IMG/VR virus record: IMGVR_UViG_3300043436_005124
Span: 1 to 45,700 of that record
Strand: one strand, 5' to 3'
From: a virus
Length of the DNA: 45,700 nucleotides
Both the position numbers and the translations under genes were made by a program. Below the pieces are notes generated by a model. It was not told the DNA's origin. It did not search any database and saw nothing but the letters and a program-made list of their open reading frames with translations. Shown here in pieces: positions 16,808 through 34,956 of the stretch (within the stretch, counting starts at the first letter, position 1; each line of letters begins with the position of its first letter).

Positions 16808-17005
16808 TTAATGGCCAGTAATCGATTGATAGTATTCCCAGAGGTCTTGGCACTTTTCGTATTCCTCTTTACTTTCTAGATATTTTATTATGTCCAGGAT
16901 TTCATTCCAGTAAACTGAGGTGATTCCCTTTTTATTGACGTCGTTATATTTCTTGATCCATTCTCTTTCTTGCCCGTTTTCTCTTTCTAGTAATGAGTGT
17001 GTCAT
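16808..17005 (-). CDS. Small helical protein, 65 aa
   Basis: MTHSLLERENGQEREWIKKY, then EILDIIKYLESKEEYEKCQD. The C-terminal helix pair resembles part of the early 87-aa protein at 1490-1753. It overlaps the end of the deacetylase-like gene by 62 bases in another frame, so it is probably translated from the same transcript. Function unknown. Confidence 0.55.
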   Translation of the reverse strand: MTHSLLERENGQEREWIKKYNDVNKKGITSVYWNEILDIIKYLESKEEYEKCQDLWEYYQSITGH

Positions 17006-17963
17006 TGTAGTATCCCATTTTTAGGCGAGGCTTTACCTCTATAGTATATTTAACGTCCAAGTCCAATAACTTGGTAAAGCACTCAACGAAATCGGCAGTA
17101 TGTAAACTTAAGACTGACGTATAATCATCATCTCGATATCCACCGAATAGAGCGCACGAAACTGATAAAGGTCTGCCTAATATTCCATCCATCTCTTTCA
17201 CCCAACTCCAAAAAAGAGTTGAGCAAGCTACCCAATAGTCAGTTTCACATTGGCTTCCTAAGTTATCGTCAGCATGCGAATCCGCTCCATGGCACCAAAC
17301 TACATATTGGATTTTATCAGCAATGATTGCATGCTTTAGTCTCTCTAACCATTTAGCTAAATCTGCCAAGTAGTCTGAATCGATGCCGATTGGATTAATA
17401 TTAAAGTCTTGAGGAACTGCTAAGTTTAAGTCTTTGCAAAAGAGTCGACTGTCTTCAATTGAATTGCCGAAATGGCCGTCTAGATCAAGATAGGCTCCTC
17501 TTGCTCCAAATTCCTTATAAATCTTTAATGATGCAATCACCTGGCCACTAAATGTACAAAATCCGCTTCCGCCGCTTGGTCGTGCATGGTGAAATCCGCT
17601 AGTTGGACTAAAGCTAACTTCCGCAGGATTCACTATTGAATTTCTTATCGCTGCATGTAATGACGCATTCGTATATCGGACTGAATCCGCGAATTGTTTT
17701 GACCATGCCAGCCCGTTTGAACTACATCGACCGGTTCCTTTGAAGAATTCATCGATATAGCTAGCCTCATGAGCTAATTTAAAATCCTTTTTAGAATAGG
17801 GCACAAAGTCATTAGTCACTGAAAAATGCTTATATAAACCCTTTTGCTCAAAATACTCCAATAGCAATTTAGGCTTTAGCGGAGACTTACTGTAATTCGA
17901 GTAAGAGTCCTGGGCTAAAACCTGACAATCGTCATAGAAAGTTTTTATTTTTCGGGTTCTCAT
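16944..17963 (-). CDS. Histone-deacetylase-superfamily amidohydrolase, 339 aa
   Basis: Start at MRTRKIKTFYDDCQ, since a longer frame would cross a terminator. The arginase/deacetylase fold of class I/II HDAC, AcuC and acetylpolyamine amidohydrolase is evident. The His dyad is in SGFHHARPSGGSGFCTF (H125, H126). The zinc ligands are in YLDLDGHFGNS (D162, H164) and HGADSHADDNLG (D228). The catalytic Tyr is in LFGGYRDDDY (Y276). All key residues are kept, so it should be active. Possible substrates are acetyl-lysine on host or phage proteins and acetylated polyamines; the sequence does not decide. HDAC homologues are rare in phages. Confidence 0.9.
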   Translation of the reverse strand: MRTRKIKTFYDDCQVLAQDSYSNYSKSPLKPKLLLEYFEQKGLYKHFSVTNDFVPYSKKDFKLAHEASYIDEFFKGTGRCSSNGLAWSKQFADSVRYTNASLHAAIRNSIVNPAEVSFSPTSGFHHARPSGGSGFCTFSGQVIASLKIYKEFGARGAYLDLDGHFGNSIEDSRLFCKDLNLAVPQDFNINPIGIDSDYLADLAKWLERLKHAIIADKIQYVVWCHGADSHADDNLGSQCETDYWVACSTLFWSWVKEMDGILGRPLSVSCALFGGYRDDDYTSVLSLHTADFVECFTKLLDLDVKYTIEVKPRLKMGYYNDTLITRKRKRARKRMDQEI

Positions 17964-17965
17964 AG

Positions 17966-17977
17966 TATTATTATACC
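17966..17977 (-). promoter_or_regulatory. GTATAATA-type promoter candidate
   Basis: Leftward GGTATAATAATACT directly abuts the ATG of the deacetylase gene (TATAATA ends 5 bases away), implying a leaderless mRNA if it is a -10 box. Confidence 0.45.
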
Positions 17978-18006
17978 AAAAAGGAGCTAGCGATGTCGCT
18001 AGCTCC
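17978..18006 (-). terminator. Intrinsic terminator with 11-bp perfect stem
   Basis: Leftward GGAGCTAGCGA-CA-TCGCTAGCTCC followed by TTTTT; separates the 18056-18775 gene from the deacetylase. Confidence 0.8.
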
Positions 18007-18040
18007 AATTGACAATCAAAAGTGTAATATTTAGTAGTAA

Positions 18041-23372: not shown

Positions 23373-24653
23373 TTAATTACTTAAAGGTGCTTTAATTGTT
23401 GGATGTGATTTGTAGTTCTCAATTACAAAATCGGCTGGGTCTAAATGGCTGACTTGGTTAATGTCAAAATCTTTCCAGAAAGCATCAGTCTTTTGAATTG
23501 CTAATTTAGGTAAATCGAATGGCTCACGTGTTCTGGTTGGGATTTCATAGTACTCGTAGTACTCTGACATGCCTCCGCCAAATGGCATCAGTTCACTAAC
23601 TGCGTGATTGTATTGCTCTTCGCCCATTGCAGTTTTCAATAAATCTGATCTTTCTTCAGGCTGGTATTTTCTACCGATCTGTTCTTTTGCTTGCTCAATG
23701 TGATTTAGGTACAAGTGAGTGTCTCCCAAGTTTCCAATCAATTCATCAGGAACCATATTAACTGCTTTAGCAATGATTTCCAATAACAATCCATAAGACG
23801 CAATATTGAATGGTAAACCTAAGAATGTGTCTACACTTCGTTGATTCCACATTAAAGAAATTGCTCTAGTTGGAATATTCCATTGATTAATTTCAGAATG
23901 CGATAGAGTTTCCGGTCCTCCTCCGTTGTAGATTTGATTAAACATTTCTTGACTGACTAATACTCTCCTCTCATTTAAACTCAACTCTCTTGTATAAACT
24001 TGAAACCCATAATGACAGGGTGGAAGTACCATTTGGTCTAATTCACCTACATTCCAAGCACTAACCATCAATCGTCTTGAATCGGGATTTGTTTTAAGGT
24101 CATTGATTAGATTTGAGATTTGGTCTATTTCTTTTACTAAATAAGAACTTATATTTCCTTCATAGTCTTTAGTCAATGGTTGACCGTTACCATTCCAACT
24201 TCTCCACTGCTTACCGTATATCGGTCCTAACTCACCCCACTTTTTAGCAAATTCATCATCAGCTTGAATCATAGCAATAAACTGTTCTTTTGTTGGTTTT
24301 CGGTATGTGGATTTACCATCCATTCTTGCAACAAGTAAAGATAGTCCTACTGAGTTGTCTTTTTCATAAGCCTTTTCATAGTTCTTATAAGCATCACCAT
24401 CCCAAATATGACAATTATTATCAACAAGGTATTTGATATTGGTATCACCTCGTAAAAACCATAACAATTCGGTTACGATTGATTTCCACGCCATTTTCTT
24501 GGTTGTAATCAACGGAAATCCCTCACTCATTTTATGTCTTATCTGTCTACCGAATACTGAAATGGTTCCAGTTCCTGTGCGGTCTCCTTTTTGTACACCA
24601 TTATCAAGAATGTCTTGTAATAGGTCCGTGTATGTTTTATCTAAATTATTCAT
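23373..24653 (-). CDS. thyA: Thymidylate synthase (ThyA) with two insertions, 426 aa
   Basis: Makes dTMP from dUMP using methylene-tetrahydrofolate. Conserved parts: DRTGTGTISVFGRQIRHKMS, the catalytic region TELLWFLRGDTNIKYLVDN, LGPIYGKQWRSW, catalytic C213 in LPPCHYGFQVY, and FNIASYGLLLEIIA with N283. The Asn at this place favours uracil rather than the cytosine substrate of dCMP hydroxymethylases. At 426 aa it is well above the usual 264; extra segments lie at about residues 93-140 and 222-262. I recall similar insertions in some flavobacterial ThyA, pointing to capture from such a host. Confidence 0.93.
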   Translation of the reverse strand: MNNLDKTYTDLLQDILDNGVQKGDRTGTGTISVFGRQIRHKMSEGFPLITTKKMAWKSIVTELLWFLRGDTNIKYLVDNNCHIWDGDAYKNYEKAYEKDNSVGLSLLVARMDGKSTYRKPTKEQFIAMIQADDEFAKKWGELGPIYGKQWRSWNGNGQPLTKDYEGNISSYLVKEIDQISNLINDLKTNPDSRRLMVSAWNVGELDQMVLPPCHYGFQVYTRELSLNERRVLVSQEMFNQIYNGGGPETLSHSEINQWNIPTRAISLMWNQRSVDTFLGLPFNIASYGLLLEIIAKAVNMVPDELIGNLGDTHLYLNHIEQAKEQIGRKYQPEERSDLLKTAMGEEQYNHAVSELMPFGGGMSEYYEYYEIPTRTREPFDLPKLAIQKTDAFWKDFDINQVSHLDPADFVIENYKSHPTIKAPLSN

Positions 24654-25243: not shown

Positions 25244-25255
25244 CTTATTATACTA
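25244..25255 (-). promoter_or_regulatory. GTATAATA-type promoter candidate
   Basis: Leftward TAGTATAATAAG overlapping the stop of the glycosylase gene; TATAATA ends 4 bases before the next ATG. Confidence 0.45.
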
Positions 25256-26059
25256 TGATTGTAGTTCCGGAACCCAGTGAGTTGTGCGGCCATCCGGAGT
25301 TTCTTCCCTAACCACTTGATTGCCGAGCGGATCTTGTTTCTGTGCGTATACTTCAAACTCAAACGTGAAACTGCCGGATTCACCATTTACTTGTCGATAG
25401 TTTCTGATACTGGCTCCACCCTGTTGGTATGAAGCTCGCATGATCAGTTTTCCCCAATTCCAAAGTTGGCAAATCTCATCCTGCGTTAGGTCTTTTACAA
25501 GTCGATACGGCGATATTCTACAACGATACAGCATTTCGCATTTGATGTAGTTACCGACTCCAGCAAAGAGAGATTGGTCCATTAGCGCTTCAGCAACGGT
25601 TTTCTTTTGAGCCTTAGGTAGTTCAACTCGTCTAATAAAATCGTACATGCTTGAGGTCTGATCGTTCAACATGTCAAGTCCCAAGCTTGATAACTTCTTT
25701 GGCAATTCCTCAAGCTTTGTGAATTTTAAGGTTCCGAACCTACGCTGATCAACGAAATACAGCGAGGTACCGTCCTCAAATCCAATTCTAAAGTGACTGT
25801 GAGGTTGTTTATCGGTTGACCAATATCCGCTCATCCCCAGCGTTATCCAGAGACAGGTCTCGTCATTGAATTCCAACCAAATGAATTTGCCCTTAACTCC
25901 ACCACCGATCACACGAACGGGAACGTCAGGCTTTACTTCAAGGTCCGGAGCTCTTTTTAGGAATCTTCCTCCCAACACTTCAAATTGTGTAATTGTTCTG
26001 TTTTGAGAGAATTCCGAAATTCCTTCGTAAACTCTTCTACATTCTGGTCCTTCTGGCAT
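25253..26059 (-). CDS. Fpg/Nei-type DNA glycosylase/AP lyase with a zincless finger, 268 aa
   Basis: Start fixed by the N-terminal MPEGPECRRV; the catalytic proline must be residue 2 after Met removal and the next residue is Glu (P2, E3). The family helix-two-turn-helix follows (QSLFAGVGNYIKCEMLYRCR). The C-terminal finger QKQDPLGNQVVREETPDGRT followed by THWVPELQ keeps the beta-hairpin and Arg but has lost all four zinc-binding Cys, as in NEIL1-like 'zincless' enzymes. It should remove oxidised bases by beta-delta elimination. First gene of the leftward unit ending at 23007. Confidence 0.9.
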   Translation of the reverse strand: MPEGPECRRVYEGISEFSQNRTITQFEVLGGRFLKRAPDLEVKPDVPVRVIGGGVKGKFIWLEFNDETCLWITLGMSGYWSTDKQPHSHFRIGFEDGTSLYFVDQRRFGTLKFTKLEELPKKLSSLGLDMLNDQTSSMYDFIRRVELPKAQKKTVAEALMDQSLFAGVGNYIKCEMLYRCRISPYRLVKDLTQDEICQLWNWGKLIMRASYQQGGASIRNYRQVNGESGSFTFEFEVYAQKQDPLGNQVVREETPDGRTTHWVPELQS

Positions 26060-26062
26060 GGG

Positions 26063-26070
26063 ATAAATAA
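26063..26070 (+). promoter_or_regulatory. Late-promoter motif GGATAAATAACTTTAC
   Basis: 33 bases before the ATG at 26096; identical 16-base element to that at 21559-21574. Confidence 0.65.
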
Positions 26071-26095
26071 CTTTACTAAAATATACCAAAACTTA

Positions 26096-29626: not shown

Positions 29627-30595
29627 TTAGACTATTTCTAAGAATCTTGTATCATTGAATTCCAAGTAGTTTTCAAGCAAGCTTTCAAATTGCTCACGAT
29701 ACTTGAGAACCGCAAGATCCTTGGCCTTGGCCTCGACCTCAATGTCGATAGTTAAGCCATAGTTATTTATTTTCTCGTAAACATGATCAGCATGAGAGCG
29801 CGCAATGACTGATGCGTCCTCAAATGTTTTCTTACAACTTGAGTAATGAGTTAAGGGCGTGTGACCGTGCCAAGTTGTGTAGGCTAGACGTAGTGCAGCC
29901 TCCTCGGTGAGATCGCCGGTATTGAAACGATGATGATGAAAATCGAATGTGATTGGTGTACCGATCTGTAGATAAATCATTTGATATAGATCAGCAACCG
30001 AGTATTGGGCAGCCTTGTCATCGTTCTCAACGACCAGCCTAGACTTGGTGTTTGGCTTTAGCAACTGAAAGTTTTCGCAAAAACGTTGAGCGGCTGATGC
30101 CTTGTCACCGTAAGTACCGCCGACATGAATGTTGATTGGAAAACCTACGTTTACGGGTAAGCCCATAAGATCCATGATTTCACAGTGCTGATCCAAATCC
30201 TTGATGGTTTTTGTAACCACCGATTGAGTTGGAGATGGCAAGACATCGAACTGGCCAGGATGCATTGAAATACGCATACCGTTGGCTAGTGCAAAGCGGC
30301 CGATTGCCTGCATGTCCGGCAGAATTTCGGAAAAATTCGGAAGCTGTTGAATTTCGTACTCTGACATCCAAGGAAAAATATCACTTGACATTCGATACAC
30401 GTAAATGCCGTTTGCCAGATTCCATTCTAGTATTTTAAGAATGTCCTTGACGTTTTGATGAGCAAGCTCGCCACAGTACAAAGGACCCTTCTCCTGAAAG
30501 GTCCTCTTTATCATACCGCGATTAGCGGTAATTTTTTGATCAGCTAGTGATAGATTAATACAGCAATAGCCGAGTCTTACATTGTTAGATACCAT
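29627..30595 (-). CDS. UV DNA damage endonuclease (UVDE/UvsE family), 322 aa
   Basis: Nicks DNA directly 5' of pyrimidine dimers and other distortions. The TIM-barrel family pattern is clear: VRLGYCCINLSLADQKITAN, YVYRMSSDIFPWMS, ISMHPGQFDVLPSPTQSVVT, INIHVGGTYGDKASAAQRFC, VVENDDKAAQYS, and ITFDFHHHRFN. His, Asp and Glu metal ligands of the family (H in MHPGQ, H in NIHVGG, E in VVENDD, H in FHHH) are all present. Length (322) is normal. It works in the same unit as the exonuclease, ligase and ssDNA-binding protein, which could complete the repair. Confidence 0.93.
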   Translation of the reverse strand: MVSNNVRLGYCCINLSLADQKITANRGMIKRTFQEKGPLYCGELAHQNVKDILKILEWNLANGIYVYRMSSDIFPWMSEYEIQQLPNFSEILPDMQAIGRFALANGMRISMHPGQFDVLPSPTQSVVTKTIKDLDQHCEIMDLMGLPVNVGFPINIHVGGTYGDKASAAQRFCENFQLLKPNTKSRLVVENDDKAAQYSVADLYQMIYLQIGTPITFDFHHHRFNTGDLTEEAALRLAYTTWHGHTPLTHYSSCKKTFEDASVIARSHADHVYEKINNYGLTIDIEVEAKAKDLAVLKYREQFESLLENYLEFNDTRFLEIV

Positions 30596-30632: not shown

Positions 30633-31256
30633 TTAGTTATTATTAATTGTGTAATTATGAGTTGCTGAACGAATTACACGAATCACATCGAGTGCGTCCT
30701 GACACGCATCATGAGTAACTTCTCCAGGCAAGTCGAATCTTTTCAAGCACATATTCAAGTTAGGTAAGCTATCATCTTCTTTCCAATCGGTGCACAGAAT
30801 GGCTGGATCAATGATTCGCTGTCTCATTTGAATGCATGAACCCCAACCTGGTAGCTTTTGTAAAAAGAGCTTGTCAAATGTTGCAAAGTTCTTGCCGGCT
30901 GCATTGATCTTGACTGCTCCAGTGGATTCCATTTTAAAACCGTTTGCCATCAACCACATTTGAAGTTGCTTGGCTGCAAGTGCGGCTGGAATAATATTGT
31001 TGGCTTTGCGATACTCAATACGATCGTCCTTGCTCAATCCTTCCATGCCAGATAAGATCTTTAAGATCCATGAATTCATGCTTAGAGCAGTCGGCTGACC
31101 TGAATATTTCTCATGCTCAAGTATGCACATGAATTTTGGAAGTTCTTCAAGCGGTTTTGGATCGGCAGTGTCTTCGATTACTGCTCCGATTTGTAAAATT
31201 TGACAGGTCTCTGAGTCGAGACCTGTCGTTTCAATATCAATTGATACGTATTTCAT
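30633..31256 (-). CDS. DEDDh 3'-5' exonuclease (DnaQ-like), 207 aa
   Basis: Exo I: YVSIDIETTGLD (D7, E9); Exo II: NAAGKNFATFDKLFL (Asp after FATF); Exo III: VTHDACQDALDVI (His and Asp), giving the full DEDDh set. This family includes proofreading subunits and exonucleases such as T4 DexA and RNase T. The ATG overlaps the tyrosinase stop codon (TAATG), so the two are translationally coupled, an odd partnership. Likely acts in DNA repair or host DNA breakdown. Confidence 0.88.
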   Translation of the reverse strand: MKYVSIDIETTGLDSETCQILQIGAVIEDTADPKPLEELPKFMCILEHEKYSGQPTALSMNSWILKILSGMEGLSKDDRIEYRKANNIIPAALAAKQLQMWLMANGFKMESTGAVKINAAGKNFATFDKLFLQKLPGWGSCIQMRQRIIDPAILCTDWKEDDSLPNLNMCLKRFDLPGEVTHDACQDALDVIRVIRSATHNYTINNN

Positions 31257-32680
31257 TATTTCTTAAATTCTATTTTCTCAATGATTAGATCACCTGTGTG
31301 CTTGCCGTTGTGCTTGTATATTTGGATCTTATTCGTATGAGAGTAAGGAACCTCGTACTCAAAAACAAAGGTTGGGCGACCGGCTTTAGTTAGTGGAGTG
31401 CAACAGCCTTTCGGGCAGCTTTCGCCGGACATTTTATGGTCAGTTCCAAAAAAGGTCATGTAACCTACAAACTCATTATCACTTGTACTAAATTCATTTT
31501 GATTATTAAGATAGACTTCATAAACTCCATGAGGTAGTTTAGTGTACGATACAGTTAAGACCAATTTAACGGTTTTCGGATGATTGCCGGTCAACTTAAG
31601 TTGAGTCACCGCATCCGTAATTTGACTGTTTATCTTAATCGGCTCAGCTGAAGTTGCCAATACGGTTTCAGGATAAGAACTTACTCGTGGTGAAGAAGCT
31701 TTGGGCTGAACCTTAGCATCATCGAAATCGTAATCCATTTTGTAAATGATGTCCATTACTTGTTCAAGGGTATAGGTAACTTTCTTGCCGTTCTCGTCAA
31801 AGAACACATAAGACCATTCAAATTCTCTAAGCTCTTCTAGAGTTACAGGCTTGCCGTTTTCAGAATTGGTCCATTGTTGCCAGATTCTGTCTATTTGAGA
31901 ATGATGAGTCCAAAAAACTGGATCGAAACCTGCAGTTGGTACCCAACCCATTATGCCGGTGTTGGTGATAGAATTGGTTATTGGATTATTGAATTTTAAA
32001 GTTCCAGTAGTGTCATTACCTGCACCAATGTAATCGTGCATTGCACCATGTGGAGCAGCATTGATTTGATAGCAAAAATCCTTATAGTTAGTTCGCTTCA
32101 TTAGGTTAGTTAAATCAAGTGCTCTTTCAATTTCTCCGCTAATTGGTTGACCTGCATTAAGCGCATCATATCTGCAAGCTTCATAGGCTCCGTTTCCTGG
32201 AGTTCTGAATACCTCTTGTAGAACTTTATTATCAGAGTTGGGTCCAGAATAATCCCAGTAAGGTAAAGTGAATTCATTATAGCCTGATAATTTACGAACT
32301 ATTTTCTCAAAGTGCCAAATGTAGAGTCTATGCCAAACCAAGAAGTGTAGTTTCTCCTTGCCGCTTGGTGAGTGAGTGCAATTATCCCATGCCTCTTTTA
32401 GATCAGCGACCGTATGATATGAACTGCATAATTTATTGTCAGCGAGAGTGTCCGGAATCCAGTGAATTGCCCCTTGATAGTACCAACTTAATGGATCTGA
32501 ACAGTCCTTTGCTCTCATGATTTTTAAGGCTTTATCAAGGGCTTCAAGATCCTTTTTTGCTTCTGGTGAGTGAACTTCATGTCTCACGTAACGGTGAGTT
32601 GAATTTGAGTGCCATACGTAAGCGGCTGCTAAGATAGCCATGATTACAATAGCAATTGTCAGTTTAATAGATTTTGTCAT
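31256..32680 (-). CDS. Membrane-anchored tyrosinase / polyphenol oxidase, 474 aa
   Basis: A type-3 copper oxidase of phenols. An N-terminal signal anchor (LTIAIVIMAILAAAYVW) predicts export. CuA site: H73 in GAIHW, H103 in NCTHS or H112 in KLHFLVWHR, and H117 of WHRLYIWHFE. CuB site: H211 and H215 in APHGAMHDYIG, and the HH pair in GFDPVFWTHHSQIDRIWQQW. A C-terminal beta-rich part (KLVLTVSYTKLPHGVYEVYL; EFVGYMTFFG) resembles the KFDV-type domain of polyphenol oxidases. All copper-site motifs are intact, so it should be active. It sits between the ssDNA-binding protein and exonuclease genes in a DNA-metabolism operon. A tyrosinase in a phage is very unusual. Confidence 0.92.
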   Translation of the reverse strand: MTKSIKLTIAIVIMAILAAAYVWHSNSTHRYVRHEVHSPEAKKDLEALDKALKIMRAKDCSDPLSWYYQGAIHWIPDTLADNKLCSSYHTVADLKEAWDNCTHSPSGKEKLHFLVWHRLYIWHFEKIVRKLSGYNEFTLPYWDYSGPNSDNKVLQEVFRTPGNGAYEACRYDALNAGQPISGEIERALDLTNLMKRTNYKDFCYQINAAPHGAMHDYIGAGNDTTGTLKFNNPITNSITNTGIMGWVPTAGFDPVFWTHHSQIDRIWQQWTNSENGKPVTLEELREFEWSYVFFDENGKKVTYTLEQVMDIIYKMDYDFDDAKVQPKASSPRVSSYPETVLATSAEPIKINSQITDAVTQLKLTGNHPKTVKLVLTVSYTKLPHGVYEVYLNNQNEFSTSDNEFVGYMTFFGTDHKMSGESCPKGCCTPLTKAGRPTFVFEYEVPYSHTNKIQIYKHNGKHTGDLIIEKIEFKK

Positions 32681-32701
32681 GTGTATTTTATTTTTTAATT
32701 T

Positions 32702-33127
32702 TTATAGATCAAAAGGTAAGTCATCATCGCTCCAATCCTTATCAACCTTTGCGGTTGATTTCTTTGGGCCAGTATCAATACCTAGGCTACGGAAGATTTC
32801 ATCGTCATCATCGTCCTCTTCTACCTGTTTGCCCTTAACCGCGGCACGTTGCTGACCGCTGATTCGATAGGCTTCCAAAGTATTGAAGTACTTGGTTTGA
32901 CCTGACTTGTCTGTCCAGTCTCGACCCTTGACGTCAAACGCAACTGCAACAGTATCACCAACTCCATAAGAGTCAATCATGTCACACTTGTCTTGAACAA
33001 GTCCGAAAACTACTTTTTGTGGGTACTTATCTCCCGTTTCAATAACGAACTCTCTTTTGCGAAAGCCCTTGTTAAAAGTCTGTGATGGGAATATTTCAAT
33101 GATTATCCCGGTTAATTCAAATGCCAT
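32702..33127 (-). CDS. ssDNA-binding protein, DUF3127 type, with SSB-like C-terminal tip, 141 aa
   Basis: The N-terminal OB-fold (ELTGIIIEIFPSQTFNKGFR, KREFVIETGDKYPQKVVFGL, VGDTVAVAFDVKGRDW, KYFNTLEAYRISG) matches the DUF3127 family of Bacteroidota. It ends in an acidic linker and SDDDLPFDL, close to the DDDIPF tip by which bacterial SSB recruits repair proteins. It should coat single-stranded DNA and act as a hub for the enzymes encoded around it. The ATG begins 1 base after the stop of the kinase gene. Confidence 0.88.
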   Translation of the reverse strand: MAFELTGIIIEIFPSQTFNKGFRKREFVIETGDKYPQKVVFGLVQDKCDMIDSYGVGDTVAVAFDVKGRDWTDKSGQTKYFNTLEAYRISGQQRAAVKGKQVEEDDDDDEIFRSLGIDTGPKKSTAKVDKDWSDDDLPFDL

Positions 33128-33128
33128 A

Positions 33129-33608
33129 TTAAAAGTCTGGGTTAGTTATTCGTATATCGTAATTTGTAAAATTCTCAAAGTCCTTGCGATCCGCCTCTAT
33201 TCTGCGATCCACCGAATCTCCTGGCATGTTACGAGTCGCCATTCTCTCACGTCTGATCTCTTCTTCAATATCAATGAAGATGACGAATGATTTTTTACGT
33301 GAGTCCTCGTCCAAATGAGCTAGACCCGAAGGAGTCATGATGAACACATCATCGTAATCGAACTGATCTCTTGAAGTTCCGTAGATCCAACCATTGAATT
33401 CAACGTACTCATAGAAGTCATCATTCTTAATCATTTCTTGAGCCTCTTCCTGAGAAATGAAGATGTAATCAACGTTATCAATTTCGCCTTCCCTAGGAGG
33501 ACGAGTTGTGTAACTAATTGCGTATCTAAAGCCTCTAGCTTCAAATTTTTTGCGGATGTAGTCTTTACCGCTTGCGGCACGGCCGACTAGGATTATTCTT
33601 TTATGCAT
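33129..33608 (-). CDS. Guanylate-kinase-like nucleoside monophosphate kinase, 159 aa
   Basis: P-loop IILVGRAASGKDYIRKKF near residue 5 and the GMP-binding segment SYTTRPPREGEIDNVDYIFI followed by S (residues about 32-52) are those of guanylate kinases; FYEYVEFNGWIYGTS follows as expected. The protein is shorter than cellular Gmk (about 205 aa). It probably supplies (d)GDP for phage DNA synthesis. It lies between ligase and ssDNA-binding protein in the leftward unit. Confidence 0.88.
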   Translation of the reverse strand: MHKRIILVGRAASGKDYIRKKFEARGFRYAISYTTRPPREGEIDNVDYIFISQEEAQEMIKNDDFYEYVEFNGWIYGTSRDQFDYDDVFIMTPSGLAHLDEDSRKKSFVIFIDIEEEIRRERMATRNMPGDSVDRRIEADRKDFENFTNYDIRITNPDF

Positions 33609-33614
33609 GTATAA

Positions 33615-34913
33615 TTAAAATTCTCTTTTCTGTCCGTGAACTACTTTTATTACTGGAAATCTTAATGAGTGATCTCCGCGCTGGTCTGTAGTTTCTTCAA
33701 AATACTGAACGGTTATTGTTTTACCTAAAATTTCATTTGGGTTTTGATGATAGAATCGTCTTTGGTCAAGAGAGAAACCTGAACCAACTCTAACTTGATT
33801 ACCTTTGTGCTCAATGATTACTGCCTTTAACATCACCTCTTCAATCTCACGACCGTTTTCAATAACTCGGTGGACATCGCTCTCGTGATCAATCACAACG
33901 TACTCAGCATCGTGCATCTTTTTAACCTTAAGTAAATTCTTTGAACGCTTGCCCTCATAACCAACATCCTTACGAATCATTATGCCCTCATAACCTAAGT
34001 TGGTTGCATCCGCCACCATTTCTTCAAAGTGCTCTCTGCTTGAGACTTGAATTTGTACAAGAGGAGCTACGCACTTGAGATCAGAATGAAGGCTGAAAAA
34101 GACTCCAAGCTGAAGTAGCCTAGTAGAGAGAGGAATTTCTCCAGACTGGTTATTGAACTCCTCGGCTTGAAGCATGTCGAACACATAATACATTGGGTTC
34201 TGGATAGTATGATCCTTACGACCAATCTCCTTGATGATTCCTTGAAAATCTTCAAGTCCACCATCCTTCATGATGCAAACTTCTCCATCCAATACAACGG
34301 ATCTAAGATTTAGGCTCTTCAATTCTTCAGCTAGAACGTCAAGGGTTAAAAACTCGTTTCCTGCTCTAGAATAAAACTTAATGTCTCCGTTTTCATCAAT
34401 TACGGCAATGCATCGGACTCCATCAAGCTTACGACTGGCCCACCATTCGCCTGAGTCAAAATTAACCTTTTTCTCATTGCCTTCGAACTTTTCAGCTAGG
34501 GCAACATCGAATGTTGGAACCGTTCCTGGCATAACAGAATTGATTAGGGTTGTAGTTGCTCGGGTCTTTAAGTTACGATCTATCACATCATAGATCACAT
34601 CTGCGAACTCCTTATTCTTTTCAATAAATCCATTCACGGATTGAATTGCAGAGTGACCAGTCACACGACGTTCGTTCAGATCATCGAGTAGGCTGAATAG
34701 GTCATCATAGTTATCGAAACTAAGATCTTGACGCTTCTTCAAGTTATCTGAGGTAACGTAGTATTGTTTGAAAGGAGAGTACACGTATTCAAATAACTTT
34801 CTGAGCACGGGCGAGTCATACTTTTGCAAAATCGACTTCTTATCGTTGGTTGATGAAGTTGCTTTCATTTCCTCAATGAAATTGACAACTGTTTGAAAAT
34901 CTTGGTTTTTCAT
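33615..34913 (-). CDS. ATP-dependent DNA ligase, 432 aa
   Basis: Start at MKNQDFQTVVNFIEEMKATS; a few more codons upstream would overlap the promoter motif. Motif I is ASRKLDGVR with the adenylated K162; motif III YYVFDMLQAEEF; motif IV GYEGIMIRKD; motif V NLLKVKKMHDAEYVV; the OB-fold follows (VGSGFSLDQRRFYHQNPNEI). Overall like phage ligases of the T4/T7 type. It seals nicks in replication and finishes excision repair started by the glycosylases and UVDE in this window. First gene of the leftward replication/repair unit. Confidence 0.94.
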   Translation of the reverse strand: MKNQDFQTVVNFIEEMKATSSTNDKKSILQKYDSPVLRKLFEYVYSPFKQYYVTSDNLKKRQDLSFDNYDDLFSLLDDLNERRVTGHSAIQSVNGFIEKNKEFADVIYDVIDRNLKTRATTTLINSVMPGTVPTFDVALAEKFEGNEKKVNFDSGEWWASRKLDGVRCIAVIDENGDIKFYSRAGNEFLTLDVLAEELKSLNLRSVVLDGEVCIMKDGGLEDFQGIIKEIGRKDHTIQNPMYYVFDMLQAEEFNNQSGEIPLSTRLLQLGVFFSLHSDLKCVAPLVQIQVSSREHFEEMVADATNLGYEGIMIRKDVGYEGKRSKNLLKVKKMHDAEYVVIDHESDVHRVIENGREIEEVMLKAVIIEHKGNQVRVGSGFSLDQRRFYHQNPNEILGKTITVQYFEETTDQRGDHSLRFPVIKVVHGQKREF

Positions 34914-34915
34914 AT

Positions 34916-34931
34916 AGGTTATTATACTAAA
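34916..34931 (-). promoter_or_regulatory. GTATAATA-type promoter candidate of the replication/repair unit
   Basis: Leftward GTTTAGTATAATAACCT; TATAATA ends 6 bases before the ligase ATG, directly behind a terminator. Confidence 0.5.
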
Positions 34932-34932
34932 C

Positions 34933-34956
34933 AAAAAAAGCCGCTGTCGCGGCTTT
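34933..34956 (-). terminator. Intrinsic terminator after the 34977-35600 gene
   Basis: Leftward GCCGC-GACA-GCGGC with flanking A/T followed by a seven-T run. Confidence 0.85.

Follow-up and report, generated by a model that had tools for sequence, protein, structure and literature searches.

Bacteroidota-derived, exported type-3 copper polyphenol oxidases as probable mobile cargo of T4-like jumbo phages

Results

Tyrosinases and polyphenol oxidases (PPOs) are the enzymes behind the browning of cut fruit. One of them is encoded in the stretch of DNA analyzed here (the window), a 45.7-kb linear virus record: an open reading frame of 474 amino acids with an ATG start (31256..32680, minus strand). 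We interpret it as a mobile, Bacteroidota-derived auxiliary gene in T4-like jumbo phages, encoding an exported type-3 copper PPO, an explanation to which, taken whole, we give a probability of about 0.6. That the product is an exported, active phenol or catechol oxidase carried as accessory cargo is very probable; what the phage gains from it is a more tentative matter.

The coordinates, family, and copper motifs of the gene were all confirmed. The translated frame matches the PF00264 Tyrosinase profile at 3.6e-29 (103.1 bits, against a curated cut-off of 22.6). Its CuA region (residues 73-118; 32327..32464, minus strand) contains H73, the thioether motif C101-T-H103, and H117 within a WHR triplet, while its CuB region (residues 211-265; 31886..32050, minus strand) contains H211, H215, H259, and H260. 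The six copper ligands—H73, H103, and H117 in CuA and H211, H215, and H260 in CuB—are invariant in an alignment of 37 homologues (13 phage and 24 cellular), as are the thioether cysteine C101 and the seventh histidine, H259, and phage copies of as little as ~42% identity retain every active-site residue. The preliminary description of this DNA, which had called the type-3 copper motifs intact, was thus right on this point. The solved Hahella tyrosinase aligns along the C-x-H and F-L-x-WHR stretch, and relative to it CuA has a five-residue insertion between HA2 and HA3, and the D-P-x-F-W-x-H-H stretch of CuB matches both tyrosinases and molluscan hemocyanins.

Structure prediction, the check that the preliminary description had proposed, gave the expected fold. 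The AlphaFold (AF2) model (pLDDT 85.9, pTM 0.88) has the Hahella tyrosinase 8b74 as its best Foldseek match in the PDB, followed by latent aurone synthase and PPOs, with E values down to 9e-18 against tyrosinases and PPOs. These alignments cover the core and the C-terminal domain and run full-length against latent plant PPO structures that retain their own C-terminal shielding domain. In the model, residues 331-474 (31259..31690, minus strand) form a beta domain in the position of that shielding domain, directly preceded by a sub-threshold match to the PPO1_DWL linker (residues 290-325); searched against the PDB by sequence alone, the C-terminal domain gave chance matches only. At the other end of the protein, the hydrophobic residues 1-25 (32606..32680, minus strand) are modeled as a helix spanning residues 2-25, consistent with the membrane anchor or export signal that had been suggested for this gene. 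A lipobox was found at the N terminus by regular expression in the phage homologues L010, L013, L016, L017, and L018/L020 and is also visible in L164 and L364. Because it is missing from some phage copies (the window, L008, and L011), the final location of the protein may differ between lineages.

Does the gene belong to phages? No tRNA and no structural gene were recognized in the window itself. A contig of 252,618 bp, however, matches it collinearly from about 0.7 to 56 kb and has both a terminase gene (TerL) and the capsid gene gp23. The tyrosinase gene is present on 23 other IMG/VR contigs; as three sets among these (L012/L013/L014, L018/L020, and L007/L359) each look like a single phage, the distinct full-length phage proteins number ~15. 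A search for phage hallmark genes on the same contigs, likewise suggested beforehand, found TerL and/or gp23 on six: T4-type gp23 on G007, G009, G011, G016, G018, and G817, with contigs reaching 476 kb, and TerL on G007, G009, and G011. The neighborhood seen in the window recurs on contigs from other metagenomes (L003-L006, L009, L015, L019, and L021). Chimeric assembly or host contamination, the former already raised as a concern in the preliminary description, would fit with the presence of cellular relatives in Bacteroidota, but we rule it out with near certainty, given that the gene order repeats on independent contigs, that the phage clade is separate from all cellular ones, and that hallmark genes lie on the same contigs. 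The tyrosinase sits on genuine phage genomes. By gene sharing, its carriers split into at least four lineages, a pattern compatible with both vertical and horizontal spread. Their hosts are probably Bacteroidota, judging from the source of the tyrosinase, the DUF3127 type of single-stranded DNA-binding protein (SSB), and A-rich ribosome sites.

The preliminary description pointed out that no role for a tyrosinase is established in phages. In our searches, a match to the gene was found neither in 50,697 phage records (INPHARED, tblastn) nor in PHROGs profiles nor, by structure search, in BFVD, and the open-access literature searched for a phage tyrosinase or auxiliary-gene precedent returned unrelated papers only. 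A further tyrosinase, of a second and distant subfamily, is encoded on L353 (IMGVR 3300044614_002230; 65.7 kb, classed as viral), a contig on which no gp23 match was found; at 26% identity, it was omitted from the phage clade described below. Three other features of these contigs are recorded here. The TerL match in G007 (G007:65931-67232) runs through a TGA and a TAA, which hints that the terminase gene is interrupted by an intron or an intein-like element. The thymidylate synthase frame of the window (23373-24653) is 426 aa long, and its PHROG match is split in two; it seems longer than the profile, 246 profile positions being spread over 336 residues, possibly through an insertion. Finally, the window encodes a protein of histone-deacetylase fold (16944-18008; PF00850, 59 bits).

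Two trees each group the phage proteins into a single clade (support 99/96.4, and 99/97.8 once more members were added) that adjoins enzymes of Emticicia and Mucilaginibacter; cellular proteins were sampled by pattern scans and a genome draw, so a cellular member from outside that sample may fall inside the clade. Relatives are rare in the corresponding host orders, at 4/390 and 4/401 genomes. The gene is apparently host-derived, the result of a single acquisition from Bacteroidota. Between close phage copies, dN/dS is 0.037-0.054, which points to strong purifying selection; values of 0.04-0.05 mark a functional gene and not a chance reading frame.

Is the tyrosinase part of the repair-gene neighborhood in which it is found? 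Its neighbors, all on the minus strand, were correctly named in the preliminary description, as profile matches attest: an ATP-dependent DNA ligase (33615..34934; phrog_114, 305 bits), guanylate kinase (33129..33608; PF00625), a DUF3127 SSB (32702..33127; PF11325, phrog_4932), a DnaQ/RNase T-like exonuclease (30633..31256; PF00929, phrog_192), and the UV-damage endonuclease UvdE (29627..30595; PF03851, 189 bits). The described coupling to the exonuclease is also present, in that the tyrosinase stop and exonuclease start share a TAATG overlap. Membership in a DNA repair operon, by contrast, did not survive comparison across phages. The tyrosinase fills a cargo site between the SSB and exonuclease genes (31257..32701, minus strand). 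Among 43 distinct sequences of this junction, 30 are empty, with the two genes abutting at 0-64 nt, six hold the tyrosinase, and seven have other content. The junction is empty in L176 and L178, whose exonuclease and UvdE are 90-94% identical to those of the window. In L177 (92-96% identical in the same genes), it is occupied by a GIY-YIG/NUMOD3 homing endonuclease gene (L177:2529-3185), in front of which the start of the exonuclease is partly duplicated, and in L193 and L202 by a DUF2452-like gene; a gene of this kind also follows the tyrosinase in L007, outside the SSB-exonuclease site. When mapped on a tree built from ligase, exonuclease, and UvdE, the presence of the tyrosinase needs at least three changes, and L009, which has it, pairs with L198, in which the junction is empty. 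Whole relative contigs of 253 and 271 kb, both with gp23, lack the tyrosinase. Given such varied junction contents and these relatives without the gene, the tyrosinase is accessory. Linkage to repair genes is not conserved among its carriers: the gene rides the transcription unit as cargo, and the TAATG overlap is a feature of the insertion and does not point to a function shared with the repair genes.

Two explanations of the gene turn on this neighborhood. One is a UV shield, in which a melanin-like pigment would protect infected cells or virions and work together with the repair enzymes UvdE and Fpg. It accords with UvdE adjoining the tyrosinase in the window and with the Fpg-type glycosylase gene at 25253-26089. 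However, the distance between UvdE and the tyrosinase exceeds 100 kb in G008, G009, G015, and G018, and no UvdE match was found in the tyrosinase phage G011 (299 kb), so the functional tie proposed earlier between the two genes falls away. Repair genes are also retained by relatives without the tyrosinase. Since the gene travels in the transcription unit as cargo, the pigment idea loses its main support, and we consider it improbable. L017 encodes a copy of the Fpg/MutM-type DNA glycosylase with 43% identity, ~4 kb away from its tyrosinase gene; together with a Nudix hydrolase and UvdE, the Fpg gene of the window would fit a phage under oxidative damage, unlinked to the tyrosinase.

The other explanation is that the gene is a mere passenger, delivered without benefit by homing-endonuclease-associated exchange. 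The homing endonuclease and partial exonuclease start at the same junction in L177 would suit such an arrival, but a dN/dS of about 0.04-0.05, active-site residues conserved down to ~42% identity, and tyrosinases in four or more phage lineages at other sites make it very unlikely.

The phage enzymes are set apart by two features. In the C-terminal domain, the conserved GxMTFFG strand is followed by a CxxGCC motif (C422, C426, and C427 in the window; 31400..31417, minus strand) in 17 of the 18 full-length phage proteins listed and in none of 47 cellular proteins. The corresponding loop is His/Met-rich in most Bacteroidota relatives (e.g., AHDHGMEENH, DHHSGMEDMKMEGM) and absent after GxMTFFG in cyanobacterial ones. 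The fraction of His, Met, and Cys is 0.186 in the loop versus 0.091 in the core for phages and 0.153 versus 0.067 for cells. The loop is of a metal-binding type, and we mark the motif as a candidate for copper loading.

The second feature concerns the active site. Asn at HisB1+1 is frequent, without being required, in strict tyrosinases (monophenolases); every one of the 13 aligned phage proteins has Gly there (Gly212 in the window). At the waterkeeper position HB1-4, just upstream of the CuB region (Asn207 in the window), 10/13 phage proteins have Asn and 3/13 Asp. The waterkeeper Glu, usual but not obligatory for the PF00264 family, is thus missing from all 13; it is present in 16 of the 24 cellular rows and missing in the sister group of the phage clade. 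Both positions have been linked to mono- versus diphenolase activity, and the waterkeeper Glu occurs in almost all characterized PPOs, with AoCO (Gln) as an exception (PMC8049008). These residues suggest, with modest confidence, that the phage enzyme prefers diphenols; because Gly at HisB1+1 is found in true tyrosinases as well as in catechol oxidases, the substrate class is a guess (PMC8049008).

Could the enzyme instead travel inside the capsid or tail to act on the next host? Many proteins of these jumbo phages (contigs G008, G009, G015, and G018; L100-L152) begin with a tag like MKHIKxYxxFxNE, with examples at L017:11531-12283 and L010:6549-9879. Observed versus expected counts are 50/13.4 in G008, 52/19.9 in G009, 21/5.8 in G015, and 17/4.8 in G018. 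The tag seems similar to the sequence that directs internal proteins of T4 to the capsid, and a large set of proteins that are packaged or ejected may bear it. Products of genes flanking the tyrosinase in G008, G009, and G015 carry it, which speaks for a virion protein. The tyrosinase itself is without the tag and begins instead with an export signal, and in the window lineage its gene sits among DNA-metabolism genes; packaging is therefore a poor prospect, if marginally better than the pigment.

Discussion

How might an exported PPO serve a phage? We propose the following sequence of events. Sequence comparison supports its first part: a single acquisition into the phage clade, spread over four or more phage lineages, and gain or loss, more than once, at the SSB-exonuclease cargo site. 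During infection, the gene is probably transcribed alongside the DNA-metabolism genes, and its product would cross the inner membrane and be retained in the envelope by a membrane anchor or as a lipoprotein. Copper may be loaded without a caddie protein, through the CxxGCC loop of the enzyme's own C-terminal domain; no gene for a caddie protein or conserved partner was found next to the tyrosinase in any lineage. Until its C-terminal domain is cleaved or moved aside, the enzyme would remain latent; it would then oxidize o-diphenols, in preference to tyrosine, to quinones with O2.

As the most likely benefit, phenolics such as humic or algal catechols would be cleared at the cell surface. According to a review, catechol in the presence of Cu(II) inactivates phages, and adsorption of some phages is blocked by polyphenols (PMC10003480). 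Phenolics together with copper may damage phage DNA and block adsorption in this way, so clearing them from around the infected cell would shield the progeny. The lack of a conserved partner gene across tyrosinase lineages counts against this benefit, which we hold tentatively, as the leading candidate at less than even odds.

Its main rival is cross-linking and superinfection exclusion. Surface phenolics or exposed tyrosines would be converted to quinones that cross-link the outer envelope, blocking receptors or hardening the cell until lysis. The predicted anchored or lipoprotein location agrees with this, as does the patchy accessory distribution of the tyrosinase, a distribution typical of exclusion genes. 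In L017, moreover, the gene immediately upstream of the tyrosinase has a lipoprotein-like product that matches the phage Cor exclusion protein very weakly, at the level of the signal peptide. On the other side, the Cor match is limited to residues 1-37 (E about 0.01), there is no link to a receptor, and the missing waterkeeper Glu together with Gly at HisB1+1 favors small diphenols over protein tyrosines. Envelope modification is thus possible but less so than phenolic removal. Doubtful, and a step further down, is the more specific version in which an envelope-anchored copper oxidase with a built-in Cys copper-loading loop remodels the infected Bacteroidota surface through quinone cross-linking or competitor exclusion.

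An enzyme that is predicted to be exported, to need copper and oxygen, and to act on phenols outside the cytoplasm is unexpected cargo for a phage. To our knowledge, few phage auxiliary enzymes work outside the cytoplasm. The occurrence of the gene in several jumbo-phage lineages, the strong selection that it appears to be under, and its phage-only cysteine loop argue that phages use it, and what they gain from an extracytoplasmic redox enzyme thereby becomes a testable question. If phenolic removal is the answer, phages would be linked to the turnover of humic matter; if envelope modification is, they would have a new way of altering the infected cell, and we know of no phage that takes over the host envelope by way of a redox enzyme. 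The SSB-exonuclease cargo site offers a natural experiment on this question, with near-identical phages that do and do not carry the tyrosinase.

How does the phage enzyme compare with known systems? Its family is known already, while a phage clade with its own loop and active-site changes is absent from the databases and papers searched. With the latent PPOs (CgAUS 4z11, tomato 6hqj, and Hahella 8b74), it shares the type-3 copper core, the Cys-His thioether motif, and a C-terminal shielding domain at ~18% identity by structure alignment; it differs in its Asn/Asp waterkeeper, its phage-specific Cys motif, and, relative to Hahella, the CuA insertion. The match to Verrucomicrobium vsTyr (8bbq) is restricted to the core. 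Closer are PF00264 proteins of Bacteroidota (Emticicia sp. 21SJ11W-3, Mucilaginibacter rigui, and Flavobacterium spp.), which have the same domain order, export signals, and a CuA with C-T-H, insertion, and WHR; the sister group is 44-48% identical to the phage tyrosinase, and one difference lies in the loop, His/Met-rich where the phage has CxxGCC. In Flavobacterium (L030:4556-7455; L028 is similar), the homologue follows genes for a secreted Cu-oxidase_3-domain protein and a 142-aa secreted protein, possibly the operon and partner of the cellular enzyme. Auxiliary metabolic genes and morons at the variable loci of T4-like phages differ in that no tyrosinase is among them in the databases and open-access papers searched, but they share with the gene described here its character as a host-derived accessory gene at a variable site between core genes, where a GIY-YIG homing endonuclease can be the alternative cargo.
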